From NCBI RefSeq assembly GCF_000230735.2, contig NC_019962.1, forward strand, positions 1,674,001-1,738,000: a stretch of 64,000 nt of DNA, given 5' to 3'. The position numbers and the translations under genes are program-made. The DNA comes from Natrinema pellirubrum DSM 15624 (GTDB taxonomy: Archaea > Halobacteriota > Halobacteria > Halobacteriales > Natrialbaceae). Shown piece by piece: positions 11,246 to 45,118 of this stretch. Within the stretch, counting starts at the first letter, position 1. Every line of letters begins with the position of its first letter. Under the pieces are notes generated by a model, which was not told the DNA's origin, did no database searches, and saw only the letters and a program-made list of their open reading frames with translations.

Positions 11246-11320
11246 GCTCCGATGGTGTAGTCCGGCCAATCATATTGCCCTCTCACGGCAATGACCAGGG
11301 TTCGAATCCCTGTCGGAGCA
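11246..11320 (+). tRNA. tRNA-Glu (CTC)
   Basis: 75 nt without encoded CCA. The acceptor stem GCTCCGA pairs with TCGGAGC, with discriminator A at 11320. The anticodon stem TTGCC/GGCAA encloses the loop CTCTCAC, anticodon CTC. The T arm has CCAGGGTTCGAATCCCTG. An integrase gene follows 220 bp downstream in the same direction, so this tRNA is the likely integration site of the element to its right. Confidence 0.95.
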
Positions 11321-11418
11321 TCCTACCCCGCCGCCTTCTCGTGGTTTTCACCGTGAACTAACCACAGGTAAACGTATGTTCACGGGCAATGCGGTTCAGA
11401 TGGTGCATCGACCCCGAC

Positions 11419-11520
11419 GCCGTCTTGCGATTCCACTGTGTCGTGAGGCAATGAAGTTCAAGGGGGAAAATCGGCCGCCGTCTTGCGATTGGCGAAATCG
11501 AGAGGCAACGACCTGGGTTC
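11419..11520 (+). repeat. Two direct repeats before the integrase
   Basis: GCCGTCTTGCGATT occurs at 11419-11432 and again at 11477-11490. Each copy is followed 12-13 nt later by GAGGCAA (11445 and 11502 regions), so the unit is about 34 bp with a period of 58 bp. It lies between the tRNA-Glu and the integrase start at 11540, where arm-type recombinase binding sites are expected. This function is inferred from position. Confidence 0.5.
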
Positions 11521-11539
11521 CCGTCACGGAGGTCAGGCA

Positions 11540-12667
11540 ATGAAAGACGCGGACCAGGCAACCGACCCCCTCGAAGACATCACGCTCATCCCTGGGCCGA
11601 CAGAAGAATTACTAAATGAGCGGCAATTCCTCAACTACCGAAGTGAGCGAGAACAGTGCCTTGAATGGCTGTTAACATTCGGTATAGATCCGAAGACAGC
11701 TGATGGGTACGCAAAAACAACCGTCAGCAATCGCGCGTTCCGAATGGACCAGTTCTACCGCTGGGTTTGGGAGCAGGAAGGTGGGTACACTACGAGTCTC
11801 ACTCACGACCACGCTGACAATTACTTGCGCCACTTAGCTGGCCAACAGAAATCAAACGCGCACAAGAATTCGTGTCGGAAGGCCTTGATGATGCTCTACA
11901 AGTGGCGTCATCATCAACGGGGTGCAGACAAGTGGGAGCCAGAGATTACGTTCTCCCGCAAAAACCAATCAACGACGCCACGGGATTACTTAACGCGCGA
12001 AGAGCGGACTGCCATCCGCGACGCGTCACTGGAGTATGGAAGTGTCCCTAATCGTGATAACGTCTACGGTGACGAGCGAGACCAGTGGGTTGCGTACCTG
12101 GCACAACGATTCGAGAAGCCGAAGACAGAAGTGACGGAAGCAGATTGGGAACGCGCGAACAAATGGAAGATACCGAGCCTTGTCGCCACGAGCCTCGATG
12201 GTGGTCTACGCCCGATTGAGGTTGAACGCGCACGAACGTCGTGGGTGGACGTCGACAACGGTGTCCTTCGAATCCCGAAAGAAGAGTCCTCGAAGAATAC
12301 AGAACACTGGATTGTTAGTCTCCAGACCCAGACTGTCGAGATGCTGGATCACTGGTTGACACAACGAGCAACGATCGAAAAGTACGATGACACCGACGCG
12401 CTTTGGTTGACGAGAAGGAGCAATCCGTACCAGACCTCGTCACTCCGGAATTTGCTTCACCGGCTCTGTGAGATCGCAGAGATCTCCACAGAGAATCGGC
12501 AAATGAGTTGGTATGCCATCCGGCATTCGACAGGAACGTACATGGCGCGTGAGGAAGGACTCGCGGCTGCCCAGACTCAACTCCGTCATAAGTCGCCAGA
12601 AACGACGATGAAGTACGATCAAGCACCGGTCGAAGACCGGAAGAACGCGTTAGATCGAATGGGGTAG
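11540..12667 (+). CDS. Tyrosine recombinase (integrase)
   Basis: 375 residues from ATG 11540. An N-terminal core-binding domain (about 40-150) is followed by the catalytic domain: first Arg in GGLRPIEVER, second box WYAIRHSTGTY with its Arg, LRHKSPETT, and the nucleophile Tyr in MKYDQAP. The first His of the HxxR box is replaced by Tyr, which occurs in haloarchaeal integrases. It lies just downstream of tRNA-Glu and is the probable integrase of the 11.3-17.6 kb element. GC content and codon use are lower than in the core to its left. It converges with the homologous gene at 12690-14069, with 22 bp between the stops. Confidence 0.92.
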   Translation: MKDADQATDPLEDITLIPGPTEELLNERQFLNYRSEREQCLEWLLTFGIDPKTADGYAKTTVSNRAFRMDQFYRWVWEQEGGYTTSLTHDHADNYLRHLAGQQKSNAHKNSCRKALMMLYKWRHHQRGADKWEPEITFSRKNQSTTPRDYLTREERTAIRDASLEYGSVPNRDNVYGDERDQWVAYLAQRFEKPKTEVTEADWERANKWKIPSLVATSLDGGLRPIEVERARTSWVDVDNGVLRIPKEESSKNTEHWIVSLQTQTVEMLDHWLTQRATIEKYDDTDALWLTRRSNPYQTSSLRNLLHRLCEIAEISTENRQMSWYAIRHSTGTYMAREEGLAAAQTQLRHKSPETTMKYDQAPVEDRKNALDRMG

Positions 12668-12689
12668 TTCCCTGTGTAGTGGGGCAGCG

Positions 12690-14069
12690 TTACTCTTCTG
12701 TCCCGTCTTGAAGGATTTGCCTCGTGATATCGACACGGGCTTCAGTCGTATCCGGAATCACCGCATCGATGTGGAGGCCGCCGCCATGCGTCTTGGAGAC
12801 CGCCGTAGTTGTCTCGTTTGTCTCCTGTGCTGGTTGAGTGTTCGTAGTGGCTGTTGACGAGGTCGCGTCTGCCTCTTCTGCGAAGGGGTTGTATTCGGGA
12901 TCTGCTGCTGCCTTCTCTGCTTTTCGCTGGGTTTCGTTGAGCCGGAGTTGAAGCTTTTCGACTGGGGTCTGGTTGTACGCCTCTTGTGTCGTCTCGTATC
13001 GTTCGTGTCGCAGTTGATCGTTGGCTTCGGACAGTTCTCCCTCGGCAGTCACGTTCCGCCCCATCGTCTGGCGGAGACTGTACCAGACGATCTTCCGATC
13101 ATCTGTTTTGATCTCTGCTTCTTCGCATAGATTGCGCAGAAGGTTACAGAGACTCCCGGATTGGTAGGGGTTTCCCTCCCTGTTGAGCCAGATCTTGTTG
13201 CTCCCATCGTACTTTTCGAGGTGACGTCGCTCCTGAAACCACCCACTCAGCACATCTCCAGACCTGTCTGACAGGCCTATCTCTTCTTTTTCGCGTTCTT
13301 TGCAGGCGTACTCAGTTGGTATTTTGAGTGTGTTCGACTTCGGGTCGTACCAATGCGTTTCGGCGTTTCCGATTTCGATCGGTGCGAGTCCAGCATCGAA
13401 CCCAACGGTTACCATGGAGTTGACTTTCCCACTCCAATCAGCATGCAACCAATCGTTTCGCGTCACGTCTTCTTTCGGGATTCCAAGCCGCTGTGCAACG
13501 AGGCCATCTATTTTCTCCCGTTCGTCAACAGGCGTATCGTAGTACGATGGGAGTGCGCCATAGGACTCTGCTGCCTCAAACAAGAGTCCCAGTTCGCGGT
13601 AGGTGAATCGGTACGCGGATTCACCTTTCTCGTCACTGAAGTTGATTTTTGATTCCCACTCGTAGTCCATCGTCCCTTCGTAATACCGCCATCTGAAATA
13701 GCACTCCAGAGTGTCGGCAAATTTTCTCTTCGTCGATTCACCGTACTCTTCGCCTTTGTTCTTCCCTCGTTGTTTCGTGATCTCTGCTCGATCAATCATC
13801 AACAGGAGATTGTCGGCATGCTCGTCCTCGATTTTCGCAGGATCGTCCGGATCGAAATACGTGATTGAGAATCGATGGAGTTGATCAAGACGGTTGAGGT
13901 AGTTCTTTGCCGTCGATTCGTTAAGTCCGATTTCTCTCCTTGGATTCTTTCCCTTATCGATCATCCACGTGTGCAGGTCCCTATACGCTCGTTGGACGTC
14001 TTCTGCTGCATCACCGAGTTCTCTTCGCAACTGTTGAGTGATGTCAGCAGGTGATTTTGAACTCGCCAT
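12690..14069 (-). CDS. Tyrosine recombinase homologue lacking first catalytic Arg
   Basis: 459 residues. It aligns with the integrase at 11540-12667 through the catalytic domain: NPYQSGSLCNLLRNLCEEAE matches NPYQTSSLRNLLHRLCEIAE, and the boxes WYSLRQTMGRN, LRHERYETT and AYNQTPVE are kept. The first catalytic Arg is absent, however: GLAPIEIGN replaces GLRPIEVER. A C-terminal extension of about 80 residues is rich in Thr and Glu. It may be a non-cleaving accessory recombinase or a decaying one. ATG 14069 is preferred over an in-frame ATG at 14099 because residues MASSKS begin the helical domain. Confidence 0.85.
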   Translation of the reverse strand: MASSKSPADITQQLRRELGDAAEDVQRAYRDLHTWMIDKGKNPRREIGLNESTAKNYLNRLDQLHRFSITYFDPDDPAKIEDEHADNLLLMIDRAEITKQRGKNKGEEYGESTKRKFADTLECYFRWRYYEGTMDYEWESKINFSDEKGESAYRFTYRELGLLFEAAESYGALPSYYDTPVDEREKIDGLVAQRLGIPKEDVTRNDWLHADWSGKVNSMVTVGFDAGLAPIEIGNAETHWYDPKSNTLKIPTEYACKEREKEEIGLSDRSGDVLSGWFQERRHLEKYDGSNKIWLNREGNPYQSGSLCNLLRNLCEEAEIKTDDRKIVWYSLRQTMGRNVTAEGELSEANDQLRHERYETTQEAYNQTPVEKLQLRLNETQRKAEKAAADPEYNPFAEEADATSSTATTNTQPAQETNETTTAVSKTHGGGLHIDAVIPDTTEARVDITRQILQDGTEE

Positions 14070-14446
14070 CTGACGCGAAGCGGAATAGCATCCATCCAAT
14101 TAAAAACCCTTGTTCTAGATTCTATGGTAGTGACATATATTAATAGAATGTAAAAGTGCATATTGGCCCTACAATCGCTCACAGTACCCATTGTTCCCCT
14201 ATAGGCGAGTCGAGAAAACTGACCGGGCTTAGCGACCGTCAGAACAGATTACTGGATCGCTTCAACAACAAAATCTTCAGAATCGCAAGCAGGCGCAAAC
14301 CCTGAGCGAGGTTGACGGCGTAGTTGATGGAGAGAGGCAACTACTGCTCTTGGACGGATTTATTGCCAACTAGTTGTAATTTGAAGCATGGATGAACTTA
14401 CGGCGAACATCTCGTTCGACAGGTTCACTTATATATTTGCGTTCTG
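14070..14446. other. AT-rich intergenic stretch
   Basis: About 380 bp without a supported gene between the second recombinase and a pseudogene. It is AT-richer than the core, with TATA-like stretches (TGACATATATTAATAG near 14130) that could drive the leftward recombinase. I see no RNA gene or clear repeat. Confidence 0.4.
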
Positions 14447-14860
14447 AACATCTCCTTCCCATCAAACCCTGAAGACCCAGGATTCCGGGAAGCCCAAGAA
14501 GACCCCACCCAAGTACTAGAACGAGAAAATCCGATATTCAGCTACGTCGCCCGCCGGATGCTCACCGAGCAACCCTGGACCGACGGGAACGGCACTATCG
14601 AAGACGTTCGACGCATCTTCCGCGAGTTCTACGACGAAGCCGGTCGAGAGGAACCCGAGTACTTCCCAGCCGACGAACCAGCAGAGAAAAAGTACGATAC
14701 GGGACGCCTCAAATGGTAGCGCGACATCCAAGGTGGCCACGTCACGTTCGAATCCGAGCCCGATGCGATCACTGCCGATTTCGACCGCGAAGAATACGAA
14801 GTGTACGACTACGAGAAGCGGTTCCCGAAACGGTTCATGTCCGAGAATATGTCTGAGTGA
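14447..14860 (+). pseudogene. C-terminal remnant with in-frame stop
   Basis: One frame reads as a compact acidic protein end (NPEDPGFREAQEDPTQVLER, FSYVARRMLTEQPWTD, later GGHVTFESEPDAITADFDRE) interrupted only by TAG at 14717-14719 in the context GRLKW-stop-RDIQGG, and closed by TGA at 14858. Amino-acid content and third-base choice continue across the stop, so it is a real gene made inactive. No start is evident and the N-terminus is missing. I do not recognise the family; mobile elements of haloarchaea are its likely home. Confidence 0.6.
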
Positions 14861-14979
14861 GTCATTTTCAAGATTCATTTTAATTCTATATGGTTGACTC
14901 AGATACTAGAGATTGTCAGAAAAAGACTCGTAGGTGGTTTGTTCTAACTCCCTTTGATTGAATCAGCCGGTAAGTAGAT

Positions 14980-15698
14980 GTGCCAAACGACCGTTAGCCG
15001 ATCAAGATGCCGAGAGACAACGCGACTCAATCGCATCGAAGTACGAAGAAGACAACATTACGTGGTTCGTGAACCACCTCGGGGTCAAGCCCCGAGGCAC
15101 TCGCCTTGTTTCCTCTGTAGACGTCGAGTCAGGCGCATCTCTCGCCCGGAATCAGTATAATGATCTTCGAGATGAACTCAATGAATACGACGTAGTAGTT
15201 TCAACAGAGATCGATAGGCTCGGCCGATCATTCAGCGAACTCGCGTCTTTCGTTGAGGAACTCCGTGATCGAGGGATTGGTCTAGATTTAGTGGAACAGC
15301 CAGTTGATACGACAGGGAAAGAAGACTGGATGGGCGATCTAATGCTGAACATCCTCATCACGTTCGCAGATGCAGAGAGGAGGATGATCAAAGACCGCGT
15401 TCAGCAAGGTATCGACAAAGCCCGCCGTGACGGAAAGCGCGTCGGTCGTCCGCCGTTCGGCTACGACGTTGAGGACGGGTTCATGTACCAGGTTCCAGAC
15501 GAGTATGCCCGCGCACAGAACTTCATTAGGGAAGTGAAGAAGGGTCGGTCGAAGCGAGCGACTGCAGAATTCTTCGAAATCCCCGAGAGTGCTATCCAGT
15601 CGATCTTGAAGCGTAGTGAGCAGAACTACGAAATCGCGTTCGATAATAACGAGTGGCGGATCGAGCGAGCAAAGTTGAGGCTGGGGAGAAAGATTTAG
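14980..15698 (+). pseudogene. Serine recombinase without catalytic-Ser motif
   Basis: From 15001 the frame is a typical small resolvase/invertase: DQDAERQRDS, DRLGRSFSELASFVEELRDR, a VEQPVDTTG loop, ITFADAERRMIKDRVQQGID, then RRDGKRVGRPPFGY and a C-terminal HTH region. The family begins with a short strand and Y-x-R-V-S-T, where Ser is the nucleophile. Here GTG 14980 starts MPNDR and then hits TAG at 14995 in one frame, while DQDAERQRD continues in another frame. A deletion between these points would remove exactly YARVST and shift the frame. The only in-frame upstream start is a TTG at 14958 giving no Ser in the right place, so the enzyme is probably dead. Confidence 0.75.
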
Positions 15699-15762
15699 AA
15701 CCGCTAGAAAAGGGAAGTGATGATTTTTGACTGGACTCTGTGGGAATGATCTGGACCCCACC

Positions 15763-16194
15763 CACACTGTATTCGAAATGAAATCTGTTATAGAACGTCT
15801 AGATAATCGACCCCCACACACCGTTTTCGAAATGAAATTGGGGCGTTAAACACAGATTCAGGGCCTCATACGCGATACTGCTAATAAATATTGATTCTAC
15901 AGGTCACTTCTTTGAGTTCATTTCGATCACGGTGGCTTACTCAGCCAGTTTCACCGCATAATCCGCTCTCAGGCTGGATATGGGACAGTCTCTGTCTTCA
16001 ATTTCTATGATTTCATTTCGATTGCGGTGTGAGGGTGATTCGCCTCTGGAACATCTCCCTCTACCTAATTTCATTTCGACCACGGTGTCCTCATCTCGAT
16101 ACTGCTCCTATTGCTTCGATTCCGATAGCACCCTGAGTCATTTCGATCATGGTGCCTTCATTTCGACTACACCCCCTTCATTTCGAAAAAGGTA
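15763..16194. other. Origin-like repeat array (ORB-type) beside orc1/cdc6
   Basis: At least eight copies of TTTCATTTCGA-N3-CGGTG lie upstream of the initiator gene. Two are inverted (15763-15784 and 15816-15839) and read on the minus strand into a G-run (CGGTGTGTGGGGG). Six are on the plus strand (15917-15934, 16011-16030, 16068-16088, 16138-16154, 16157-16170, 16177-16194). An AT-rich stretch, CTAATAAATATTGATTC, sits between the two groups at 15880-15897. Inverted origin recognition boxes around an AT-rich unwinding element next to a cdc6 gene is the known haloarchaeal origin layout, and a 3' G-run is a known halophile feature of such boxes. Confidence 0.85.
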
Positions 16195-16220
16195 TTGCAG
16201 TTTAGTGTTTATCACCGATA

Positions 16221-17573
16221 ATGAATCACAACCCATCCGACATGCAGGGAGATGGGAGCGAAGATATCACAGATCAGTCTTCTGAGTCATCTATCGTCGA
16301 TAGCATCCTTGATGGCAAACGAAAAACAGTTTTCGAGAATAAACAACTCGTTGACTCGAACACGATCGTTGATCATAACCGGATCTATGGCCGTGATAAA
16401 CAACTGGCAGCTGAGGCCCGGGCGTTTCGTGACACCCTCGACGGCGAACGTCCCCCAGATCTCTTACTCTACGGGCCAAGTGGTACTGGGAAAACACTCA
16501 CGGTGAAAGCGGTCGCTGAGAAGGTAAAAGAACGCGCCACTCAGAACAAGATTGACTTCGACTTTATTGCGGTCAATTTCAAAACGATGGAGTCCCACTC
16601 GTTAGACCGCGCTGTCTGGAAACTCGGAAATCAAACCGCTAAGAAAGCCGGCGTCTCCTGGGATATCCCTCGGAAAGGTGTCTCCACCGATGCAAAATAT
16701 GTCCGCCTCTACGAGATTGTTGACCGGCATTTCGATGCTCTTGTGTTCATACTCGACGAAATTGACACTCTTACTGGTCGCGCTAGTGATGATGAGCCTG
16801 CGTATTCTCGGTTACTCTACAGCTTGAGCCGAGTTATGGCCGAGCAGCATGTCGATACCCTCGTCTCAACGGTCGTGATCACGAACCATCCCAAATTCCG
16901 CGAGAATCTCGATAGCCACACCGATAGCTCGTACAATCCGACCGGTATCCATTTCTCCGATTATGATGCTAACGAACTCATCGAAATCCTCAACCGCCGA
17001 CGCGACGCTTTCAAAGACGGGGCACTCGATGACGGCGTCATCGAACTCGTTGCTGCATACGGGGCGAAAAACGAGGGTGACGCACGTCGAGCAATCGACC
17101 TACTTCGTGATGCAGGAGAGTTGGCAAACAGGAACGGAGAGACAGTTGTTACAGAGCGGCATGTACACGCAGCCAATGACTCAGTCGTGAAAAACCGAGT
17201 GTTAGAAATTGTTGGTGGAATGTCTCTCCAGAAGAAGCTCTCGCTTTATGCTGCGGCCGTTGTCGCGGATGTGAATAATGGCGCGGCACCAAGTCCAGCA
17301 ATTTACACGTTGTATCAGGAGATCTGCCAACGCACCGACCGCGATGTCTATACACAGGAAACGGTCAACAGCCACATCAACAAAGCAGGAACGTATGGTG
17401 TACTCGAAAGCGAGCGGACGAGCGGTGGCTTCAAAAGCGGTGTTCACCTCATGTTCACGTTCACAGAACCAGTTGACGCTGTAATTGAGACACTCGAAGA
17501 AGACGATACGTTTGACGAGATCGAGCTATCCACCGCTCGCTCGATTGCGCGACAATCTATCCGTAGCACTTGA
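16221..17573 (+). CDS. cdc6: Orc1/Cdc6 replication initiator
   Basis: 450 residues. An AAA+ ATPase domain has Walker A GPSGTGKT near residue 85 and Walker B LVFILDEID near 174, then a lid with NEGDARRAIDLLRDAGE, and a C-terminal winged helix (LQKKLSLYAAAVVADVNNG, later TVNSHINKAGTYGVLE). Orc1/Cdc6 binds origin recognition boxes and loads MCM. It sits 27 bp after the repeat array, so array and gene form a replicon module. The low GC and place next to recombinases suggest a plasmid- or virus-type replicon integrated at tRNA-Glu. Confidence 0.95.
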   Translation: MNHNPSDMQGDGSEDITDQSSESSIVDSILDGKRKTVFENKQLVDSNTIVDHNRIYGRDKQLAAEARAFRDTLDGERPPDLLLYGPSGTGKTLTVKAVAEKVKERATQNKIDFDFIAVNFKTMESHSLDRAVWKLGNQTAKKAGVSWDIPRKGVSTDAKYVRLYEIVDRHFDALVFILDEIDTLTGRASDDEPAYSRLLYSLSRVMAEQHVDTLVSTVVITNHPKFRENLDSHTDSSYNPTGIHFSDYDANELIEILNRRRDAFKDGALDDGVIELVAAYGAKNEGDARRAIDLLRDAGELANRNGETVVTERHVHAANDSVVKNRVLEIVGGMSLQKKLSLYAAAVVADVNNGAAPSPAIYTLYQEICQRTDRDVYTQETVNSHINKAGTYGVLESERTSGGFKSGVHLMFTFTEPVDAVIETLEEDDTFDEIELSTARSIARQSIRST

Positions 17574-17844
17574 CATCTCTCAGAGTAAGACGTGAAAATC
17601 TTGGTGAGGTATCATAGAACGGTTGGTACGCCCAATCTCGACTCTCCAAAATCGCTCAATACAGGGCAAGCAGTTGCCGAAGCGGCTATCGATCTATCCG
17701 AATATGCCAAAAGCCACCTGCTGAATGTAGTGCGCGTCTCGGTCAAGAATCCATGGTAGCTATAGCGGGACTAGGCGGTCGCGGAAAGAACTGGCTGGAA
17801 GAACTGTACACAAAGCTTATCCCACTTTCATTTTCACAGGACAT

Positions 17845-18300
17845 ATGAGCCATTCACGGCGAACCGCGCTTAGCGTCCTCGGCACTGGGTTGCTAGGCGG
17901 ACTGGCCGGGTGCAGTTCTAGCCTATCCAAGAAGCTAAATGATAAGCCCGACGCGCCCATTGTGCTGGAGAATCAGCACGATGAGAAGCATATGGTTTCG
18001 GTTGCGATCACGTCGATCCCGAGTACCGGGCTTGGCTACACCCATTACTTTTCTGGCGTGCATTTGGTTGCGGCTGTTGACAGCGAAATGGATGGTGAAG
18101 AACTTAACACACACACGTTTAATGAGGCTGAGTTATCGTCCATCGACCATACGTCGGGGGTGCTGGCGATGGTGATGTTGGACGACGAAACTGCCGTGCG
18201 TGAGGAGATCCCGCTCGATTCGGGGTTCGCCGAACTACAGATCCTTATCACCGAAGACGGCGAAATAGATATGCGCCCCGAGTGGCGCTCCGACACGTAG
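17845..18300 (+). CDS. Tat-exported lipoprotein
   Basis: 151 residues. The N-terminus MSHSRRTALSVLGTGLLGGL with lipobox LAGC (Cys 23) is a twin-arginine lipoprotein signal, the usual haloarchaeal route. The mature part is a small beta-rich domain with no family I recognise. It stands alone downstream of the replicon module, with 270 bp of empty DNA before it. Confidence 0.75.
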   Translation: MSHSRRTALSVLGTGLLGGLAGCSSSLSKKLNDKPDAPIVLENQHDEKHMVSVAITSIPSTGLGYTHYFSGVHLVAAVDSEMDGEELNTHTFNEAELSSIDHTSGVLAMVMLDDETAVREEIPLDSGFAELQILITEDGEIDMRPEWRSDT

Positions 18301-18459
18301 CCTCTACAAAAGTTTCTATCGTTCAGTACAGGGGATTCACATACCAGCGCTGGTCGAGATTTGCCCGACTCCTTTCAGGAACAGCCTGCAAGATATAGAG
18401 AGTCGATTCATCACGCTAATGATGAAGCGTACCAGACTTTAGAACACAACCTACGAACG

Positions 18460-19065
18460 TTATTCGCGTAGTATAGTCACCAAGATAGTGAGAGTGAAGC
18501 CTGCTGTCGCCAAGAGGAAACTCGGCGTCGTCAACAGAAGAGCGAACGGCCCAAGCGGCGAATCACCCCCACCGAAGCTTCCCACCTCAAGGGCCGCTCC
18601 GACAGCTACCACGAGATAGAACGCAACACCCGGAGCGATACCACTTCCAACGGCCGCAGGAAATCCGAGCCGATACCTGCCGCAAATTCCGCCAGCAACT
18701 CCCGGGACAACGCCGAGGGCGATCGCAAAGACGGCCGTACCGATCAGTCCGGAGACTCCGATTTCAAGAAGACCGAATGGAATGAGGAGGAGCGCGGTTG
18801 TACCCCCGACCGCAATAACAGTCACAAGCGCACGTAGCGGATGTTCGCCGTACAGGTGCTGGCGGAGAGTGGCCACAGTACCCGTTAGAAGCCTGTGAAC
18901 TGATAGACTTTCGGTCAGTTGACGACAGAAATTGTTGACCGTCCAACTGGGATATTCGTCGCGCTGAATTTGCGCGCTGTATCTCGCACGAAGGCAAGAA
19001 CATATGGCCGCAGCTGGTAGATTGATCGGTAGTACATTCGCAGTCCTACGTAACGGCCTTTTCAC
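18460..19065 (-). CDS. Polytopic membrane protein
   Basis: Up to 201 residues. Four hydrophobic segments are visible: ALVTVIAVGGTTALLLIPFG, LIGTAVFAIALGVVPGVAGG, GIAPGVAFYLVVAVGAALEV, and LLLTTPSFLLATAGFTLTIL near the end. No internal ATG is available; the frame starts at GTG 19065, but the first 45 residues look non-coding, so the true start may be an alternative codon near VHRLLTGTV. No family recognised. Confidence 0.55.
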   Translation of the reverse strand: MKRPLRRTANVLPINLPAAAICSCLRARYSAQIQRDEYPSWTVNNFCRQLTESLSVHRLLTGTVATLRQHLYGEHPLRALVTVIAVGGTTALLLIPFGLLEIGVSGLIGTAVFAIALGVVPGVAGGICGRYRLGFPAAVGSGIAPGVAFYLVVAVGAALEVGSFGGGDSPLGPFALLLTTPSFLLATAGFTLTILVTILRE

Positions 19066-19231
19066 CGAGGACAGTGTCTAACAAATGGGTTTCAGCAGAG
19101 CCGAAGGCTTTGCGACAGCGCACGACGGGCGACGGCGACGGCGGATACAGTCGCTGGGACAGAAACGGACCTGTTTCGGAGCGAGAGACACCGCAACCGG
19201 GTTCTTGCTTCCGTGGCCACAGGGACTGTCC

Positions 19232-19816
19232 ATGGAGGCGTCGAACTACGATATCGAGGGGCTCGACCTCTCGGCCGACCGGTACACCGTCGAACAGAAC
19301 CTGATACGGAACGAGTACAGAGCCCTCGACGACCGCGGTAATACGGTCCTCGAGGGGAAGCAAAAGACGTTCAAACTCAAAGAGGAGTTCCCGTTCGTCG
19401 ATGCGGACGGTGACGACGTGTTCACCGTGACGGCACAGCAGATCCGGGACTACAAGGGCCAGTACGTTCTCACGGACGCTCGAAGCGACGAGGACGTCGT
19501 CGTTCTCGACCACGAGTACTCGCTCCTCGAGCAGATTACGGGAGCGACCTGGACGATCCGTGACCCCGAGACCGACGCCGAGCTGGCGGCGATCACGTCT
19601 CGGAAGTTCGTCGGTCTGTTCCGGACGGGGCTCTTGGGGAACCTGATCCCACACCACTACGAAATCACCGACGCCGACGGCGGCCACGTGGGTTCGATCA
19701 CGGGGCAACTCTCGATGAAAGATCGGTACGACATCGAGATCGACGACGCCAGTTCCGTGCCGCGGGTCCCAGTCGTGGCCGCCGCGATGGTCATCGACGC
19801 GATCGAGGGGCACTGA
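19232..19816 (+). CDS. LURP-one-related / Tubby-like protein
   Basis: 194 residues. It consists of repeated short beta strands with the pattern NEYRALDDRGNTVLEGKQK, DGDDVFTVTAQQI, ATWTIRDPETDAELAAI and GSITGQLSMKDRYDIEI, typical of LURP-one-like (LOR/Tubby-fold) proteins, which bind membranes or nucleic acid in other organisms; the archaeal role is unknown. ATG 19232 is chosen because the longer frame upstream is Arg-rich shadow sequence. A lipoprotein gene follows 9 bp later on the same strand. Confidence 0.75.
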   Translation: MEASNYDIEGLDLSADRYTVEQNLIRNEYRALDDRGNTVLEGKQKTFKLKEEFPFVDADGDDVFTVTAQQIRDYKGQYVLTDARSDEDVVVLDHEYSLLEQITGATWTIRDPETDAELAAITSRKFVGLFRTGLLGNLIPHHYEITDADGGHVGSITGQLSMKDRYDIEIDDASSVPRVPVVAAAMVIDAIEGH

Positions 19817-19825
19817 GTTCGACCC

Positions 19826-20377
19826 ATGGAACGGAACGACGCCTCGAGTGACGGCATTCGCCGCCGAGATCACAGTCGGGAACGGACGCCTCGAGACACC
19901 ACCCACACCAGACGGGCGGCTCTCGCTGCGAGCGCAACGGCGCTACTGACAGCGATAGCCGGCTGTACGACCGCAATGGACTTCATCGGAGACCGGTTGC
20001 TCGAACAGGTCAACGTGTTCAACGAAACCGACCGACGAGTCGCCGGTTCCATCGCCGTCGGCGACCCCGCCGGTGAAACGGTTCTCGACGAGACGTTCGA
20101 CCTCGCTCCGTCGGAGTCGGGGAACGACAACGAAGGGTCGGCCTCCGGAGACGACGAACAGTCCGTCGCAGTGTACGACGACGTGTGGGGCGAGGCCGGC
20201 TCGTACGAAGTGACCGTCGAACTGACTGACACCGAAATAGACGGCCGATCACGGGCGAGCGAAACGGTGACGATTAGCGATCCCGACGAGCAGTTACTCG
20301 GTGTCGCACTCGGTTCCGAGGAGGTCGGTGAACCGATCGGCTTCCGCGTCGGCGAGAGCCTCTCGGATCTGGCGTAA
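19826..20377 (+). CDS. Tat-exported lipoprotein
   Basis: 183 residues. The first 32 residues are polar and rich in Arg and Thr, followed by TRRAALAASATALLTAIAGC, a twin-arginine lipoprotein signal with Cys near residue 46. The mature domain is strongly acidic (SGNDNEGSASGDDE) and beta-rich (SYEVTVELTDTEIDGRSR), like many haloarchaeal surface lipoproteins with an Ig-like fold. It starts 9 bp after the LURP-one-like gene, so the two are likely co-transcribed. Confidence 0.75.
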   Translation: MERNDASSDGIRRRDHSRERTPRDTTHTRRAALAASATALLTAIAGCTTAMDFIGDRLLEQVNVFNETDRRVAGSIAVGDPAGETVLDETFDLAPSESGNDNEGSASGDDEQSVAVYDDVWGEAGSYEVTVELTDTEIDGRSRASETVTISDPDEQLLGVALGSEEVGEPIGFRVGESLSDLA

Positions 20378-20646
20378 CGCGAGCCGCTATATAACACTAT
20401 TCCCAGACTTACGCGTGATTGGGCATTTCGCCCCTCGAGTAGCGATTTTCAGCAGCCAACGGAAGCGCAAGAGTGTTTCCGTCCGTTGGGAACGGAATTT
20501 CTGAGTGGGTGGTTGACCGCGCTACGCGGCCCAAACAAGGAGTTTTCCAACAGGGCGTTGGTTCGATAATTCCCGGGAGAGGAGACGAAATACATTACCC
20601 TTCCAAGCGACTAGCTCGGCCGATATCACGGTCCGAACTGATCGAC

Positions 20647-20916
20647 ATGTACCAGGTTCCACCCTTTGGCAGTGCCGTGGCGTTGTTTCTCGCGGGAGTG
20701 TACTGTATCGGAACGGACATCTCGCGTGTCGTGATCGATGCCAGTGATGGCAGTCGGTGCCGGCGAGTACACCGATTACGTGGAGTCGCGGTCGTCGCGC
20801 TCAAGGACGTCCTGCTGGCGCACGAGGTGAGAAGACCGCGGATACGACACTCGAAACGATCGTTCTACGGAGGGATCGACACACAACAAATCGCGGCAAC
20901 GGCCACTAGTGACTAA
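20647..20916 (+). CDS. Possible small protein before the Cu ATPase
   Basis: 89 residues from ATG 20647: a short hydrophobic N-terminus (FGSAVALFLAGVYCIGTDIS) then an Arg-rich remainder. It ends 3 bp before the ATPase start, which would suit a coupled accessory gene, but the C-terminal half has weak coding character and the reverse strand is also open. It may be a decayed membrane protein or chance. Confidence 0.3.
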   Translation: MYQVPPFGSAVALFLAGVYCIGTDISRVVIDASDGSRCRRVHRLRGVAVVALKDVLLAHEVRRPRIRHSKRSFYGGIDTQQIAATATSD

Positions 20917-20919
20917 CGA

Positions 20920-23358
20920 ATGTCCGACACCTCGCCGTCAGAACCCAGCTGTACACTCTGTGACCTCCCCGTCAGTGGGAGTGACATCGTATCGGACGGC
21001 AATCGGTTCTGCTGTACTGGCTGTCGAGATGTCTACGTCACCCTTGGGGACGTCGACGACATCGACGCCGACGACGTCCGCCGCGCTCGAGACGATTCAC
21101 AGTCCGATCGCGAGGTCCCGTCGGATCACGACGCGACGTTTCTAGAAGTCGACGGGATGCACTGTGCGACCTGCGAGGCGTTTATCGAATCAGCCGCGAC
21201 GACGATCGACGGCGTCAGCGATGCCAGCTCGAGTTACGTGACCGACACGGTTCGAATCGATCACGATCCGGACCGCGTCTCGGCGGCCGACCTCCAAGAG
21301 GAGATCAGCGGACTCGGCTATAGCGCCTACGCCCGCGACGATACGTTCAGCCGTCGGAGAGCGAATAACTGGGAGATGGGGCGAATCGCAGTCGGCGTCC
21401 TCATGGGAATGTCCGTCATGTTGCAGTACCTCGTCATCATCTACCCGACGTACTTCGGCGGCCTGTTTTACGGCGACCGGGTCACGGAGTTTTTCGAAAG
21501 CGCGCTCGCGAGTTCCGTCGCCACGCCATTCTACGTCGTCATCGCGGCGCTCACGACGATCATCCTGGGCGTGACTGGCAAGCCGATCCTCCAAGGGGCG
21601 TACGTCAGCGTGAAGACGCGGTCGCCGAACATGGATCTCCTCGTCGCGATCGCGGCCGTGAGCGCGTACCTCTACAGTACGCTCTCGATCGTGTTCGGTG
21701 GCGAACACATCTACTACGACGTGACCGTCGCGATAATCGTTATCGTCACGGTCGGCAACTATTACGAATCGTCGATCAAGCAGGAGGCGACCGAGCGCCT
21801 CTCCGACCTGACTTCTATCCAGGTCAACGAAGCCCGTCGCGTTCGCGAGGACGGTGAGGCAGAAGACGTCGCAGTCGAGGATCTCGAGGTCGATGATCGC
21901 GTGTTGGTCCGGTCCGGGGAACGGATCCCCGTCGACGGGACGGTCGTCGACGGTGACGCAGCCGTCGACGAGGCGGTCGTCACCGGTGAGTCCCTTCCCG
22001 CTCGGAAGACCGCGGGCGATACCGTCGTCGGCGGCTCGATGGTGACGGACGGCGGGGTGACCGTCCGCGTCGGAGCGGAGGCGACGAGTAGCCTCGATCG
22101 GATCACCGAACTCGTCTGGGACCTGCAAAGCGGCTCCCACGGGATTCAGAAACTCGCGGACAAACTGGCGACGATCTTCGTGCCGGTCGTTCTCGCTCTC
22201 GCAGTCGTCGTTACGGGCGTGAACTTCCTTCTCGGGAACGGCGTTTCCGCCCTTCTCGTCGGGCTCACGGTGTTGATCGTTTCCTGTCCCTGTGCGCTCG
22301 GGCTGGCGACGCCGCTTGCAGTCGCCGCAGGGGTCCGCGACGCGTTGGAACGCTCGATCGTCGTCTTCGACGATAGCATCTTCGAGCGAATCCGCGACGC
22401 GGAGACCGTCATCTTCGACAAGACCGGCACACTGACGACGGGTGAAATGACCGTCATCGAGACCGATCTCGGGACGGCGTTGCTCGAGAAAGCGGCACTT
22501 CTCGAGCAGCGCTCGTCACATCCCGTCGGTGAGGCCATCGCCACCGAGCGACCGGTGCCCGACGGTGGATCGGTCGAGTCCGGGTCGGACGCCGATTCAC
22601 CGGCCGACCGTGTCGTCTCCTTCGACAGTTATCGGAACGGCGTCTCGGGTATTGTCGACGGAGACGAGATCATCGTCGGCCACCCGGACCTGTTCCGCGA
22701 TCACGACTGGGACGTTCCCGCGAACATCACCGATCGAATTGCGAACAGCCGTGAAACCGGACGAGTTCCGGTTGCTGTCGGTCGCAACGGGACTGCTGAA
22801 GGCGTCATCGTCGTCGGTGACAAACTGCGGGAGAACTGGGACGAGACGGTGGCATCCATTTCCGACGATGGGAAAGATGTGGTCGTCCTCACCGGCGACG
22901 ATGCCCGGGCGGCACAGCAGTTTCGGGATCACGCTGCCGTCGACGACGTGTTTGCGGGCGTTCCGCCGGAAGGAAAGGCCGAGACCGTCACGCGATTCAA
23001 CGAGACGGGACGGACGGTGATGGTCGGCGATGGAACCAACGACGCACCGGCGCTGGCCGCGGCCGATCTCGGCATCGCTCTAGGCGGTGGGACTGCGATG
23101 GCTGCTGACGCCGCGGACGTCGCCCTCGTCGATGACGACCTCGCGTCCGTCGGGACGGTCTTCGAACTCGCTCGAGCGACGAACCGCCGTGTGAAAGGCA
23201 ATATTGCGTGGGCGTTTTGCTACAACGCCATCGCGATCCCGCTTGCCGTGATCGGTCTGTTGAACCCGCTCTTTGCAGCGCTCGCGATGGGCGGGAGCAG
23301 TCTGCTGGTCGTCGTGAATTCGACTCGGCCACTACTGTCCGACGAGGATACCGCCTGA
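20920..23358 (+). CDS. Cu(I)-type P-type ATPase (FixI/CtpA-like)
   Basis: 812 residues. An N-terminal Cys-rich metal-binding domain (CTLCDLP near 11, CCTGC near 31) is followed by an HMA domain with GMHCATCE near 78. Membrane helices follow; the actuator TGES lies in VVTGESLPARKT, the ion motif SCPCALG near 452, DKTGTLT near 500, the His-Pro SSHPVGEA near 532 and GDGTNDAP near 703. CPC marks a Cu+ (or Ag+) exporter. The extra N-terminal Cys-rich domain is typical of the FixI/CcoI branch, which supplies copper for oxidase assembly rather than resistance. No oxidase genes are in view. Confidence 0.93.
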   Translation: MSDTSPSEPSCTLCDLPVSGSDIVSDGNRFCCTGCRDVYVTLGDVDDIDADDVRRARDDSQSDREVPSDHDATFLEVDGMHCATCEAFIESAATTIDGVSDASSSYVTDTVRIDHDPDRVSAADLQEEISGLGYSAYARDDTFSRRRANNWEMGRIAVGVLMGMSVMLQYLVIIYPTYFGGLFYGDRVTEFFESALASSVATPFYVVIAALTTIILGVTGKPILQGAYVSVKTRSPNMDLLVAIAAVSAYLYSTLSIVFGGEHIYYDVTVAIIVIVTVGNYYESSIKQEATERLSDLTSIQVNEARRVREDGEAEDVAVEDLEVDDRVLVRSGERIPVDGTVVDGDAAVDEAVVTGESLPARKTAGDTVVGGSMVTDGGVTVRVGAEATSSLDRITELVWDLQSGSHGIQKLADKLATIFVPVVLALAVVVTGVNFLLGNGVSALLVGLTVLIVSCPCALGLATPLAVAAGVRDALERSIVVFDDSIFERIRDAETVIFDKTGTLTTGEMTVIETDLGTALLEKAALLEQRSSHPVGEAIATERPVPDGGSVESGSDADSPADRVVSFDSYRNGVSGIVDGDEIIVGHPDLFRDHDWDVPANITDRIANSRETGRVPVAVGRNGTAEGVIVVGDKLRENWDETVASISDDGKDVVVLTGDDARAAQQFRDHAAVDDVFAGVPPEGKAETVTRFNETGRTVMVGDGTNDAPALAAADLGIALGGGTAMAADAADVALVDDDLASVGTVFELARATNRRVKGNIAWAFCYNAIAIPLAVIGLLNPLFAALAMGGSSLLVVVNSTRPLLSDEDTA

Positions 23359-23536
23359 GTTCCCTTCCGACCATTCTCGGCTACCGACGGATGATTCGCC
23401 AGAAGCGCCGCTTGCCGGATTCGTCCCCCAGTGAAAGAGGGCCACCTCGAGGACGCCACCCTCGAGTACGGACGTTCGATGGGGCCCTCTCCGAGGTCGC
23501 AAAAAGCGGTGCCGGGGAAACTGGCCCGTCGCAGTC

Positions 23537-24188
23537 TCAGCGGCCGATCGTCCCCTGCCGAGTGATCGGGGCGTCGGGGTTGATGGAAAACGCAACGATC
23601 GTCGACACCTCGGTCGCGGTGACGGACACGTCGCTCTCGCCGGTCACGAGCGCGCTCTCGGTGTATCCGACGGACTCGTCGCCGACGTCGACTGCCCCCT
23701 CGAAGACATAACAGTAGGTATCCGAACAGGTGCCGCCACTCGTTGGGGGCCGGATCGGGGATCGGCGCGTGTTGGATGCCCGGCTCGAGGTCGAGACTGT
23801 GTGGTCGGACGAAGAGCTGAAGCATCCGCAGCGGCGGGTCGTCCGCGAGCGTCTCCTCGGCGTGCCAGAAGCCGCTGCCGGCGTTCATCACCAGCAGGTG
23901 TTCGGGATCGGTAACGAGTTCGTTCCCTTGCCGGTCGTCGTGACGCATCACCCCGTGGGGAACCCACGAGATGATCTCCTCGTTGCGGTGTTGATGCATC
24001 CGGATCAGTGTTCCCGGATCCATGAACGACTCGACGACCGCCGCAAGCGGACCGTATCCGTGGTCGTCGTGGCCCGGGACCGGACGGCCGGGGAAATTGA
24101 AATGGATCCTGAACTTGCCCTGATTTTGTGAGACATCCGTTCGTGGGGCGGTGTGGATTCGCGACTGCGCCGACGCGGAATCGTCCAT
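23537..24188 (-). pseudogene. Pirin-family gene broken by deletion/frameshift
   Basis: Residues 1-152 are a good pirin N-terminal cupin (RIHFNFPGRPVPGHDDHGYG, SFMDPGTLIRMHQHRNEEII, HLLVMNAGSGFWHAEE) up to NEWRHLFG. The reading then changes frame: a second frame continues with DTYCYVFEGAVDVGDES and ends INPDAPITRQGTIGR-stop at 23537. About 25-30 residues expected between the two parts are also missing, so a deletion caused the shift. Pirins are Fe cupins with regulatory or quercetinase activity; this one should be inactive. Confidence 0.8.
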
Positions 24189-24394
24189 TCGCTCTCCGTA
24201 GTTCCTCGAGCGCTATATGTGTTCTGTGCGCTGGTGACCGCTCGTCTCTCGAACCGGGAATTGCTCTCTAGTCACCCTGCACTAGCTCTCTGATAACCGC
24301 TTAGTTAGAATAGCTCTACATATCACTCTATTAATCATGGCAATTCGGCTGTAAGTGGGTGTTCTGTCGATTGTTCCGTTCCCAAACCCTTTTG

Positions 24395-24408
24395 ACTAAC
24401 TAGTTAGT
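24395..24408. promoter_or_regulatory. Palindromic operator for the TetR-MATE operon
   Basis: ACTAACTAGTTAGT is a perfect 14-bp palindrome 18 bp before the TetR start codon; a related half-site TTAGTTAG occurs near 24302. TetR repressors bind such palindromes in front of their own gene, so autorepression of the regulator and the MATE pump is inferred. Confidence 0.7.
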
Positions 24409-24426
24409 AAGCTCCCTATCGATCAG

Positions 24427-25026
24427 ATGGCAGATGAACCAGCTACCGACATTCTGGATGCAACGTATCGCGCCCTCTGCGAGCATGGCTACGCGAACCT
24501 CACACTGCGGGATATCGCTGCCGAAACGGACAAGAGCAAGGCGTCGATCCACTACTACTACGATTCCAAAGACGAGTTGTTCGTCGCCTTTCTCGACGAA
24601 TTATACGAGCAGTTCACCGATCGCGTGGGCACGCACGACGGAGACACGGCACGTGAACGACTCGAGACGCTCTTTCAGGTATTGCTCACTACCGACGCCG
24701 ACTCGTCTCGGAGGGAGTTTCGAACTGCGATGCTCGAACTGAAGGCACAGGCTCCGTACAACCCGCCGCTGCGGGAACGCCTCATCGAATTTGACGAGTT
24801 CCTGTTCGAACAACTACGAGAGATCCTTTCGGCTGGCGTACACGCCGGTGAGTTCGACGGATCCGTCGATCCAGCCCGCCACGCGGAGTTTCTCACGACG
24901 GCGATTACCGGCGCACAAACCCGTCACGTCGTCATCGACCACTCCTCTGCACGGCTTTACGGTACGATGACCGGATACCTCGAGCGACAGCTGCTCGCCG
25001 ACGAGAACTCGGAGGTCGCACAGTAA
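24427..25026 (+). CDS. TetR-family repressor
   Basis: 199 residues. The N-terminal HTH is typical: YRALCEHGYANLTLRDIAAE, then KSKASIHYYYDSKDELFVAF. The C-terminal part is an all-helical ligand domain with RREFRTAMLELKAQAPYNP and a final ITGAQTRHVVIDHS. Its stop overlaps the MATE start (TAATG at 25022-25028), so the pair is coupled, and a palindrome lies just upstream. It most likely represses the efflux gene and itself, released by an unknown compound. Confidence 0.93.
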   Translation: MADEPATDILDATYRALCEHGYANLTLRDIAAETDKSKASIHYYYDSKDELFVAFLDELYEQFTDRVGTHDGDTARERLETLFQVLLTTDADSSRREFRTAMLELKAQAPYNPPLRERLIEFDEFLFEQLREILSAGVHAGEFDGSVDPARHAEFLTTAITGAQTRHVVIDHSSARLYGTMTGYLERQLLADENSEVAQ

Positions 25027-26507
25027 TGGGGTCGTCCAGCCGTCTCGGATCGCTGTTCAAAGGCCCCGAGGAGTTCGATCTGACCTCGGGTAGCATCGGG
25101 AAGCCGCTGTTTTTCCTCTCGATGCCGATCGTCGTCACGAACCTCTTCCAGACCGCGTATAATCTCGCGGATACGTTCTGGCTCGGCCAGTACGACACCG
25201 ATGCGCTCGCTGCGATTAGCTTCGCGTTCCCGATGGTGTTTCTGCTCATCTCGCTCGGGATGGGGATCTCGGTCGCCGGCAGCGTTCTCGTCGCACAGTT
25301 CACCGGTGCGGGCGAGGAACGCGAGGCCGAGTACGCCGCGTCACAGACGATAACGTTCGCCGTTATCGCTTCGGTCATCCTCGGCAGCGTCGGCTACGTC
25401 AGCGTCGACACGTTCCTCGGCCTGCTGGGCGCGTCACGGGACGTGCTGCCGCTGGCGACGAGCTACATGGAAGTCATCTCGCTCGGCCTGCTGTTCATGT
25501 TCGGGTTCGCCGTCTTCGTCGCACTCATGCGCGGGTACGGCGATACGATCACGCCGATGCTCGTGATGTTCGGGTCAGTCGTACTGAACATCGTCATCGA
25601 CCCGTTCCTGATCTTCGGATGGACGGTCGTCGAGAACGCGCCGCTCGTCGGCACGCTCGCGTTCCCCGAACTCGGTATCCAGGGTGCGGCCATCGCTACC
25701 GTCTTCTCGCGCGCGCTCGCACTGGTCGTCGGCCTCGTGATCATGTTCCGCGGTACCCGGGGCGTCAAGATCCGTCTCCGCGACATGGCCCCCGACCTCT
25801 CGTATCTCCGCCGACTCGTTCGCATCGGCCTGCCAGCGTCCATCGAAGGGACCGGGCGAGCAGTCTCGATGAACCTCCTGTTGGTCATCGTCGCACTGTT
25901 CCCGGACACGGTCGTTGCCGCGTACGGCATCGGAACGCGTGTCTTCTCGGTCGCCTTCCTTCCCGCTCTCGCCGTCGCCCGTGGCGTCGAAACGATGACC
26001 GGCCAGAACATCGGGGCGAATAAACCGGACCGAGCCGAACGAGCGGCGGGGCTGGCGGCGAAAGTCCTCTTCGGCGCCCTCACGGTCGCGGGAATCGCCG
26101 CCTTCCTGTTTCCGGAGCCCATCGTCTCGGTATTCGTCGGTGCCGACCAGGCGAACGCCGCTCAGGTCGTCGCTATCGGGGCGGAGTTCATCCGGTACGT
26201 CGCGCTGACGTTCGGATTCATGGGCATTATGCGGGCATACACGGGTAGTTTCCGCGGCGCCGGGAAAACGCTCACTGCAGCGGCGATCTCCGTGGTGACG
26301 CTCGGCGTCGTCCGCTTCCCGATCGCGTGGCTCACTGCGGGCCCGCTCGGAGAAACGGGGATCTGGCTCTCGTTCGCGATCTCGAACGTCGCCGGAGCGA
26401 CCATCGCCTACGCCTGGTATCGACGTGGCACGTGGCGCGGGAGCGACCTGACTGAATCCAAAGCCGCCCTCGAGGAAACGACCGTCGAGACAGCAGGTGA
26501 CGACTGA
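25026..26507 (+). CDS. MATE-family efflux transporter
   Basis: 493 residues with twelve predicted membrane helices. SIGKPLFFLSMPIVVTNLFQ starts the first helix and is followed by AYNLADTFWLGQYD, typical of the MATE fold. The family exports organic cations or drugs in exchange for Na+ or H+. It overlaps the TetR stop and should be controlled by it. The second half repeats the first (RIGLPASIEGTGRAVSMNLL), as expected for this internally duplicated family. Confidence 0.93.
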   Translation: MGSSSRLGSLFKGPEEFDLTSGSIGKPLFFLSMPIVVTNLFQTAYNLADTFWLGQYDTDALAAISFAFPMVFLLISLGMGISVAGSVLVAQFTGAGEEREAEYAASQTITFAVIASVILGSVGYVSVDTFLGLLGASRDVLPLATSYMEVISLGLLFMFGFAVFVALMRGYGDTITPMLVMFGSVVLNIVIDPFLIFGWTVVENAPLVGTLAFPELGIQGAAIATVFSRALALVVGLVIMFRGTRGVKIRLRDMAPDLSYLRRLVRIGLPASIEGTGRAVSMNLLLVIVALFPDTVVAAYGIGTRVFSVAFLPALAVARGVETMTGQNIGANKPDRAERAAGLAAKVLFGALTVAGIAAFLFPEPIVSVFVGADQANAAQVVAIGAEFIRYVALTFGFMGIMRAYTGSFRGAGKTLTAAAISVVTLGVVRFPIAWLTAGPLGETGIWLSFAISNVAGATIAYAWYRRGTWRGSDLTESKAALEETTVETAGDD

Positions 26508-26660
26508 TTCGGACTCCGTCGCCCGTCACGGCTCGAGCCCCCCGAAAACAGCGTCACAGTTCGCGACCGACCTCAATGATCACGATATCGGGACGGCGTC
26601 CAGTGAGGGCAACGAACCGCTCGCGACCACGTCGCGGTAGCGCGCGCTTCGGACGGCGTC

Positions 26661-26993
26661 TTACTCCCGTGCTACCGTCTGACTATGACCGCTGTGGCGG
26701 TCATCCGGAACGTCCGCGACGGGGACTTCGATCTCGTTGGTTCGCATAAACGGCGGCGTCCACGGGTCGTTGTACTGGAGTAACGCCGGCTCGCCGTCCG
26801 TCTCGAGACCTCGTCGTGTGAATTCCTCGCTGAGTCGCTCCCGTTCCCGACGGACGCGCTCGTCCGTCGCGTACCACGAGAACCGACGAACTGCGACCAT
26901 CCACGGCGGTTCGACGACGAGTCGAACGGTGGCATCGGTCGGCGTCGGCACGGTTTCGCACGTGTACGTCTGTGGGTGATGAATAAGAGGCAA
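26661..26993 (-). pseudogene. SOUL heme-binding protein, C-terminal fragment
   Basis: 110 residues matching only the last half of SOUL/HEBP proteins: TVRLVVEPPWMVAVRRFSW, then LQYNDPWTPPFMRTNEIEV. The usual N-terminal strand region with MTAPV is missing, and the frame begins at a TTG with unrelated residues. It is a truncated relic in an area with other decayed genes. Confidence 0.7.
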
Positions 26994-27487
26994 ATCCCAG
27001 AAGTACTACCGTATTGGTCCGATTCCATGCTGTCTGTGTACTCGTGACCCGACCTGACTATCAAAGAGCGAGGGAACCACTGCTACTCCAGTCGCGAACT
27101 CCTGTCGAAACTGTGAATAGGAGCGGTAATCGACTGGCTGGGATCGGTGGTCGCCCCACACAGCCGGTTTTCTTTGCATTCTCGTCGGTTCGGGCCGTTC
27201 TTCCGCTGGCAAATCCGCTATTGCATGCCATGGATGGTGGGGGACCCCGTTCGTCGACTTTTACCTCAGTGAATTCACCAGTAACCGCACAGCAGCTAAC
27301 GGACAGTTAGTCGGCTACTGAGCGAAACCACCGCCACTCATTCGTGCCGAGCTGCATGTCTAGATAATGATTACCAAGGACGGACAGCCGTTGAGTCGTG
27401 TTATCACTGTCCCCGCAAATCGTTTAGTTGAGCCGCTTATAGAGACTACATCGACTTTGAAGCAATGACATACTATGCAATGGTAAC
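26994..27487. other. Intergenic region, nothing recognised
   Basis: About 490 bp between the SOUL fragment and the DMT transporter. Short open frames on both strands lack coding character. The last 60 bp should contain the transporter promoter. Confidence 0.4.
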
Positions 27488-28492
27488 ATGACAAAGTTAG
27501 AAGACGTGCTGTTGTTCGGTGCGCTTGCACTCGTCTGGGGAACGGCGTTCACAGCGATCGAAATCGGGCTCGAAACGCTCCCACCGCTTCTCTTCGCAGC
27601 GGCCCGACTAGATATCGCTGCGGTCATTTTTGTCGGCGCGGTGCTACTCGGCCGGCTTCGGTGGCGTCCCCGGACGAAAGCCGACCTCGCTCTTATCCTC
27701 TCGAACGGCATCCTCGTCATCGGAGCGCACTTCGCGTTCTCGTTCATCGGCCAGAGCTACGTCACGAGCGGTGTCGCTGCGATCGTTCTCAGTTTCACAC
27801 CGATTATCACGCCGATCATCGCCATTCGAGTCCTCTCGACGGAACGGATCTACGTCACGGATGTCGTCGGACTCTGTTCTGGGCTTGCCGGCGTAATCGC
27901 GATTGCAATTACCGGTGGGTCCGTTGATGGACAGCTCCTCGGTATCGGGCTTCTCTTGGCGTCCGCAGTCGTCTTCGCGCTCGGCTCCGTCCTGACCGAA
28001 CGCTGGTCGGCGGACCTCCCAACGATGGCACTCCACGCGTGGGCAATGGGTACCGGTGCAGTGTTCCTCCACGTGACGGCGTACGCCTATTCTGGAGCAA
28101 CGCTCCGAAACGTAACGTGGACGCCGTCGGCAGCCGCTGCGCTCACATACCTCGGGGTCTTCGCGACAGCGGGCGGTTTCCTCCTGTATTTCACGTTGCT
28201 AGAGAGAACCGGCGCAACGAACATTAGCCTCATCAACTACGCAACACCGATCGTCGCGACGGTCTTCGGCGCAGCCCTGCTCGGGGAGGGGATCACGATG
28301 GCGACCGTCGCCGGATTCGCGCTCATCGTCGTCGGATTCGCGCTTTGTAACATCCGGCCGCTCTGGCGGCTGACCCGGGACACTTCAAACACAGCCGACC
28401 ACGATTTGCTCGAGCGGGATGAAGTCCGTATCCAAGGGAACGTGTACAAGACGGAAACCGACTCCCAGACCTCACTGCAACCAGGCGATTGA
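27488..28492 (+). CDS. DMT-superfamily (EamA) transporter
   Basis: 334 residues with ten predicted helices in two EamA repeats. The first opens with LLFGALALVWGTAFTAIEIG, and the second has AAALTYLGVFATAGGFLLYF and a final ATVAGFALIVVGFALCNIRP. The last 45 residues form a polar tail. DMT proteins export amino acids or other small metabolites; the substrate is not readable from sequence. Single gene, followed by a phosphate-type permease on the same strand after 116 bp. Confidence 0.9.
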   Translation: MTKLEDVLLFGALALVWGTAFTAIEIGLETLPPLLFAAARLDIAAVIFVGAVLLGRLRWRPRTKADLALILSNGILVIGAHFAFSFIGQSYVTSGVAAIVLSFTPIITPIIAIRVLSTERIYVTDVVGLCSGLAGVIAIAITGGSVDGQLLGIGLLLASAVVFALGSVLTERWSADLPTMALHAWAMGTGAVFLHVTAYAYSGATLRNVTWTPSAAAALTYLGVFATAGGFLLYFTLLERTGATNISLINYATPIVATVFGAALLGEGITMATVAGFALIVVGFALCNIRPLWRLTRDTSNTADHDLLERDEVRIQGNVYKTETDSQTSLQPGD

Positions 28493-28608
28493 CTGCCGCT
28501 CGGTCGTCCCTCGAGACCCGCTGAACTAACGAAGTAGACAAAGAGCAGCAACGCGGTTCCGGCGTCAGGGATTATATAAGGTAGTCAGATAATGTTGACT
28601 CAGATACG

Positions 28609-29853: not shown

Positions 29854-29934
29854 GTGGCACTCACCGAGACATCGTCCTCCACATGGAACGGCACCGGTTC
29901 CAGTGGGGTATCGAATGAGTGGGTACTCGAGACT

Positions 29935-30110: not shown

Positions 30111-30114
30111 CTAA

Positions 30115-35336: not shown

Positions 35337-35388
35337 GCGACCGTACAGATTGAAAGTATAAAGGTGCATTAGCTGGTAGACTGTTACA

Positions 35389-45107: not shown

Positions 45108-45118
45108 CGGTCTGTGGA

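Follow-up and report, generated by a model that had tools for sequence, protein, structure and literature searches.

The analyzed window is a 64,000-nt stretch of a three-contig genome (G000, C1:1,674,001-1,738,000). It contains a tRNA-Glu gene, two tyrosine recombinase genes, the remnant of a serine recombinase gene, an array of short boxes and an orc1/cdc6 gene (Table 1). As described in the first-pass annotation of this DNA, two inverted boxes with G-runs face six direct ones across AT-rich DNA, directly upstream of an orc1/cdc6 gene.

Table 1. Features of the window and of the island that extends beyond it (window positions, unless G000:C1 is given)
Feature	Position	Strand	Basis or remark
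tRNA-Glu (CTC), integration target, left intact	11246..11320	+	ARAGORN; empty site in G007 and G005
attL, 44-bp repeat	11278..11321	+	sequence repeat at the tRNA-Glu end
Island, part within the window	11278..64000	.	runs on to G000:C1:1973471
intA, tyrosine recombinase adjoining attL	11483..12667	+	Pfam Phage_integrase, 63 bits
intB, paralogous tyrosine recombinase	12690..14099	-	sequence
Serine recombinase remnant	14958..15698	+	N-terminal YVRVST of relatives (catalytic Ser) missing
Inverted box 1 with G-run (ATTTCATTTCGAATACAGTGTGGGTGGGGTC)	15753..15784, core 15765-15782	-	sequence
Inverted box 2 with G-run (ATTTCATTTCGAAAACGGTGTGTGGGGGTC)	15809..15838, core 15819-15836	-	sequence
Candidate duplex-unwinding element, AT-rich	15875..15924	.	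nearest-neighbour stability
Direct box 1	15917..15934	+	
Direct box 2, followed by TGAGGG	16012..16029	+	
Direct box 3	16070..16087	+	
Direct box 4, first of three at exact 20-nt spacing	16137..16154	+	
Direct box 5, right half degenerate (ACACCC)	16157..16174	+	
Direct box 6, candidate autoregulatory operator	16177..16194	+	position conserved in the family; promoter role inferred
orc1/cdc6 initiator, 450 aa, AAA+, lid and winged-helix domains	16221..17573	+	Pfam, phmmer
Second island cdc6	G000:C1:1831036-1832253	-	
Third island cdc6	G000:C1:1916185-1917468	+	
attR, copy of the 44-bp repeat	G000:C1:1973472-1973515		outside the window; without tRNA gene

The exact CATTTCGA core occurs eight times upstream of cdc6 (15,700-16,220), twice in the inverted and six times in the direct orientation, while composition-matched sequences, resampled from the dinucleotide transitions of the 521-bp intergenic region itself, contain 0.04 copies on average and at most 3 (20,000 trials). 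Genome-wide (4.35 Mb), TTTCATTTCGANNNCGGTG, when at most two mismatches are allowed, is found five times at the array and once elsewhere, and the reversed control pattern has no match there. The box had been called well conserved, which holds for the core, the only invariant part, present in 8/8 copies, but not for the CGGTG half, which is exact in 4/8 and lost in the two boxes closest to the start codon. A literature search for the box sequence returned unrelated matches only.

The G-runs of both inverted boxes point outward from the array centre. The AT-rich 50-mer that separates the inverted from the direct boxes has the lowest stability of the region and ranks within the top 0.15% window-wide; an AT-rich stretch flanked by inverted G-string boxes, as expected of an origin, is thus found here. 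At the other end of the array, the core of direct box 6 is located 42 nt upstream of the ATG and abuts the expected TATA position. GC skew, calculated in 10-kb steps, shows no clear shift at the module.

The cdc6 reading frame encodes an intact Orc1/Cdc6, with Pfam AAA, Cdc6_lid and Cdc6_C all above their cut-offs, a match to the Sulfolobus Orc1/Cdc6 2qby_A (phmmer, E 1.9e-43) and the motifs GPSGTGKT and FILDEID. In comparisons with three near-identical relatives its dN/dS is 0.025-0.054, a time average, part of which may fall outside the present chromosome. In the box cores none of the 72 positions is changed relative to two close relatives, compared to 33/449 and 41/449 positions of the spacer in the same two (p = 0.009 and 0.003, respectively). 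From the low dN/dS and the unchanged cores we infer that the origin function has probably been retained.

When 84,980 species genomes were scanned with this Cdc6, 27 close relatives (73-99% identity) were obtained, along with a distinct group of about 43% identity. The upstream box array is present in 27/27 of the former and in 0/8 tested members of the latter, and therefore the boxes and the initiator form a cognate module of one haloarchaeal family. Consistently, a 100/100 branch of the tree separates its 31 family members from the 43% group. The inverted pair with G-strings, in most cases spaced by about 54 nt, is missing only in L041, for which 144 bp upstream were examined, and in L055, where the array is interrupted near a contig end. 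In Halorubrum the pair has the form TTTCATATCGA, likewise at the distance of 54 nt, and in Natrinema hispanicum, one of the two close relatives used for the box-core comparison, a 54-bp unit is duplicated, producing three inverted boxes.

The genomic surroundings of the module are those of an integrated element. The 44-bp end of tRNA-Glu is repeated exactly 288,194 bp downstream, and GC content is 0.65-0.68 outside the repeats vs mostly 0.52-0.63 between them. In two relatives, G007 (96%) and G005 (87-90%), the left flank with the tRNA gene joins the right flank directly, the overlap being the 43-44-bp repeat. The uninterrupted site, the att repeats and the GC drop together define the insertion as 288,194 bp. 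Direct att repeats, an empty site in relatives and an adjoining tyrosine integrase, the features of a tRNA-gene integrative element, are all observed. The first-pass annotation, which spoke of an integrated replicon in a tRNA-bordered element, was thus right about the tRNA-Glu border and the integration, but the other border is 288 kb away, and the element is not a small replicon, as it carries three cdc6-box modules. A small element ending within the window was considered and rejected, as no second tRNA tail is found inside the 64 kb and attR is 288 kb off.

IntA is likely the integrase of the island; a 97% identical copy lies beside the same tRNA-Glu in N. hispanicum. In IntB the motif GLRPIE of IntA reads GLAPIE, and the catalytic Arg has likely been replaced. 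N. hispanicum retains this replacement in its 92% identical copy, pointing to a non-catalytic role of IntB. The nearly identical integrase pair stands at the same tRNA-Glu in N. hispanicum, with the module in the opposite orientation. In another relative (G004:C7:179434-224146) two tRNA-Glu att copies are situated about 43 kb apart, and therefore this tRNA gene looks like a recurrent integration site.

Each of the three island cdc6 genes has its own, different upstream repeats. One of the two further genes is preceded by ACACCCC-N-TGTCCAGTGTC-like boxes, occurring five times, and the other by TTTTCAGTGAAA-type inverted boxes with G-runs (the box types are given here in the same order as the genes at 1,831,036 and 1,916,185); both loci may be regarded as candidate origins. 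The expectation of an extra origin in this chromosome thus stands, in the sense that an origin-like module with its own initiator, situated on an integrated element, adds candidate origins to it. The sampled cargo comprises Kdp, metal P-type ATPases, CopC/CopD, transporters, sensor kinases and several transposases. When four pieces of 20 kb each were compared with haloarchaeal megaplasmids, many of these matched, though only in patches, and the island is a mosaic. It is likely a former free megaplasmid, judging by the initiator genes with their putative origins. This claim in its complete form is weakened by the lack of a ParA family partition gene, since no AAA_31 match is found in C1:1685278-1973514, and five strong ones are located on the small contigs C2 and C3.

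The Cdc6 family is present in 36/391 sampled Halobacteria genomes and in 17/125 Natrialbaceae; in each of the 39 genomes of the union there is one copy. Haloterrigena, Halobiforma and others carry it in a GC-rich setting (0.65-0.67), close to tRNA-Ser(GCT) and tRNA-Leu(CAG), where the neighbours are conserved; Natronococcus has it at a different conserved site near tRNA-Met, and Halorubrum on plasmids. The first-pass annotation had the module taken from a plasmid. This description is incomplete, as the family occupies not only the Halorubrum plasmids but also syntenic core-chromosomal sites of several sister lineages, and either may have been the immediate source. The GC3 of cdc6 is 0.54 in island copies vs about 0.74-0.84 in chromosomal ones, which fits a long residence of the former in low-GC mobile DNA. 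An integrase at tRNA-Val beside the module of Haloterrigena sp. H1 was considered as well, and the gene there proved to be a transposase-like ORF.

The chromosomal tRNA-Ser site is syntenic with C1:1.632-1.646 Mb of the present genome, about 43 kb to the left of the island. Here the flanking genes are retained, with 350 bp between the matches, the family copy is absent, and no remnant boxes are seen at this site. The congeners searched also lack the family there, and G131, which is assigned to this genus too, carries it at that position; the empty site may reflect loss in Natrinema or gain in other lineages. It is conceivable, if rather unlikely, that origins of this family are mutually exclusive, like incompatible replicons, and that the island copy has replaced the resident chromosomal one. 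What points in this direction is the single copy in all 39 genomes and the empty syntenic site so close to the island; with a prevalence of about 9%, the lack of genomes with two copies carries little weight, as by our estimate about three would be expected if copies were independent. If true, the chromosome would have exchanged a core origin for a mobile, island-borne one.

Taken together, these data make it highly probable that the segment of 15.75-17.57 kb is a self-contained haloarchaeal origin module, brought by the 288,194-bp mosaic island integrated at tRNA-Glu(CTC). According to this explanation, the island with the module would have entered the chromosome at this tRNA gene via the tyrosine integrase, and the ATP-bound Orc1/Cdc6 encoded by the module itself would bind the CATTTCGA boxes. 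Loading would likely take place at the G-string boxes that flank the AT-rich stretch, and melting of this stretch would be followed by recruitment and loading of MCM. In oriC1 of Haloarcula hispanica, which has the same design of inverted G-string ORBs around AT-rich DNA next to cdc6, autonomous replication was found to depend on both inverted ORBs and on their G-strings (PMC3936714). In the row of boxes proximal to the start codon, Cdc6 would repress its own promoter, or the row would titrate Cdc6, probably. A module of this kind could still support replication.

The architecture of such a module is no guarantee of activity, since two cdc6-box loci of normal architecture in H. hispanica are ARS-negative (PMC3528665). 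The chances are about even that the origin is dormant in this chromosome, as the first-pass annotation considered possible, being capable of maintaining a plasmid and outcompeted for MCM by resident origins; this would refine the origin-module explanation rather than fully rival it. The closest described case is oriC4-cdc6H of Haloferax mediterranei, patchy and recently acquired, which is silent in the wild type and fires once the main origins are deleted (PMC4595724, Yang et al. 2015). The present module is likewise patchy (36/391 genomes) and situated in an island. On the other side, acquired origins can be active too, as in the case of pHV4 integrated in H. volcanii.

A low probability is assigned to the boxes being an autoregulatory or titration array of cdc6 alone, with no replication start. 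The three direct boxes 20 nt apart at the start codon, the last approximately at the BRE/TATA position, would suit such a role, and titrating ORB arrays exist (oriC2D of H. hispanica, PMC3936714). However, the distant inverted G-string pair, unneeded for simple repression, is conserved in the family, the DNA between the two sets of boxes is unstable, and the cdc6-box unit is the sole feature common to otherwise unrelated plasmid and chromosome loci.

That the module is a decaying relic within the island is very improbable: the adjacent serine recombinase is broken, transposases are many in the island, and the array is interrupted in one relative, but cdc6 itself is intact with its low dN/dS, and the box cores are unchanged. 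A viral origin in a provirus, the other source named in the first-pass annotation, is hardly credible despite the integrases beside a tRNA gene, given one partial 27% match in 50,697 phage records, no relative in IMG/VR and a mosaic cargo of 288 kb that resembles that of megaplasmids (Kdp, metal ATPases, transporters).

By its design the origin module is kin to haloarchaeal oriC1, oriC2, oriCa and oriCb (Wu et al. 2012, PMC3528665; Wu et al. 2014 NAR, PMC3936714), sharing with them cdc6, the upstream AT-rich stretch and the flanking inverted boxes with outward G-strings. As in these origins, the box sequence is specific to the Cdc6 family, and a location in newly acquired DNA is common to the module and to many origins other than oriC1. 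The box itself differs, being TTTCATTTCGA...CGGTG here; this box family may already be listed among the published ORB logos. With oriC4-cdc6H, as described, the module shares a Cdc6 with inverted ORBs, location in a variable acquired chromosomal region and patchiness within a genus; for oriC4-cdc6H, activity was measured. The present family occurs in 4/15 species of the genus of G057, taken as Haloferax because L039 is H. denitrificans.

Large acquired regions adding cdc6-ORB loci are likewise represented by pHV4 in H. volcanii H26 and by VR1/VR2 of Haloarcula (PMC4441112). Unlike these, the present island has exact borders (44-bp tRNA-Glu att repeats, 288,194 bp, an empty site) and three different cdc6-box modules, and no ParA gene was found on it. 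That origins are gained with new DNA, that boxes and initiators are linked, and that archaeal origins can be dormant has already been described (PMC3528665, PMC4441112, PMC4595724), and the present case is a further, well-defined instance of something known rather than a system of a new type. What it adds is an exactly bounded 288-kb island with an empty-site control, three modules on it, and a family that is both core and mobile. It provides a clean natural case of origin gain by chromosomes, with the same origin family known both from fixed places in chromosomes and as cargo of mobile DNA; due to the exact bounds, the empty-site control in close relatives and this dual residence, one can directly ask whether such an origin is active, remains dormant or takes the place of a resident member of its family.

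Several rearrangements were observed in and around these loci. In N. hispanicum CDM_6 (L055 1-363) the array is cut at the equivalent of window position 15894, at a contig end, by sequence that matches a repeated copy in the island and is IS-like, probably a transposon; this is either a disrupted origin or a contig-end artefact. The serine recombinase is probably inactive; in window 14958-15122 its gene has lost the catalytic N-terminus and contains a 48-bp palindromic insertion (CCTCGGGGTCAAGCCCCGAGG), short copies resembling which are found elsewhere in the region, perhaps as remnants of an IS200/IS605 end. In another N. hispanicum locus (L031 6842-9454, corresponding to window 15117-17664) the block of serine recombinase, boxes and cdc6 is inverted relative to the integrases. 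An invertible module driven by the serine recombinase was considered and rejected: as the shared block starts near the damaged N-terminus of the recombinase and has no pair of inverted repeats at its ends, no site-specific inversion is claimed. The island also contains an inverted duplication, in which window 19036-23363 and 27220-30081 correspond to G000:C1:1896014-1900342 and 1888590-1891454, with 97-98% identity over 4.3 and 2.9 kb, a P-type ATPase block included.
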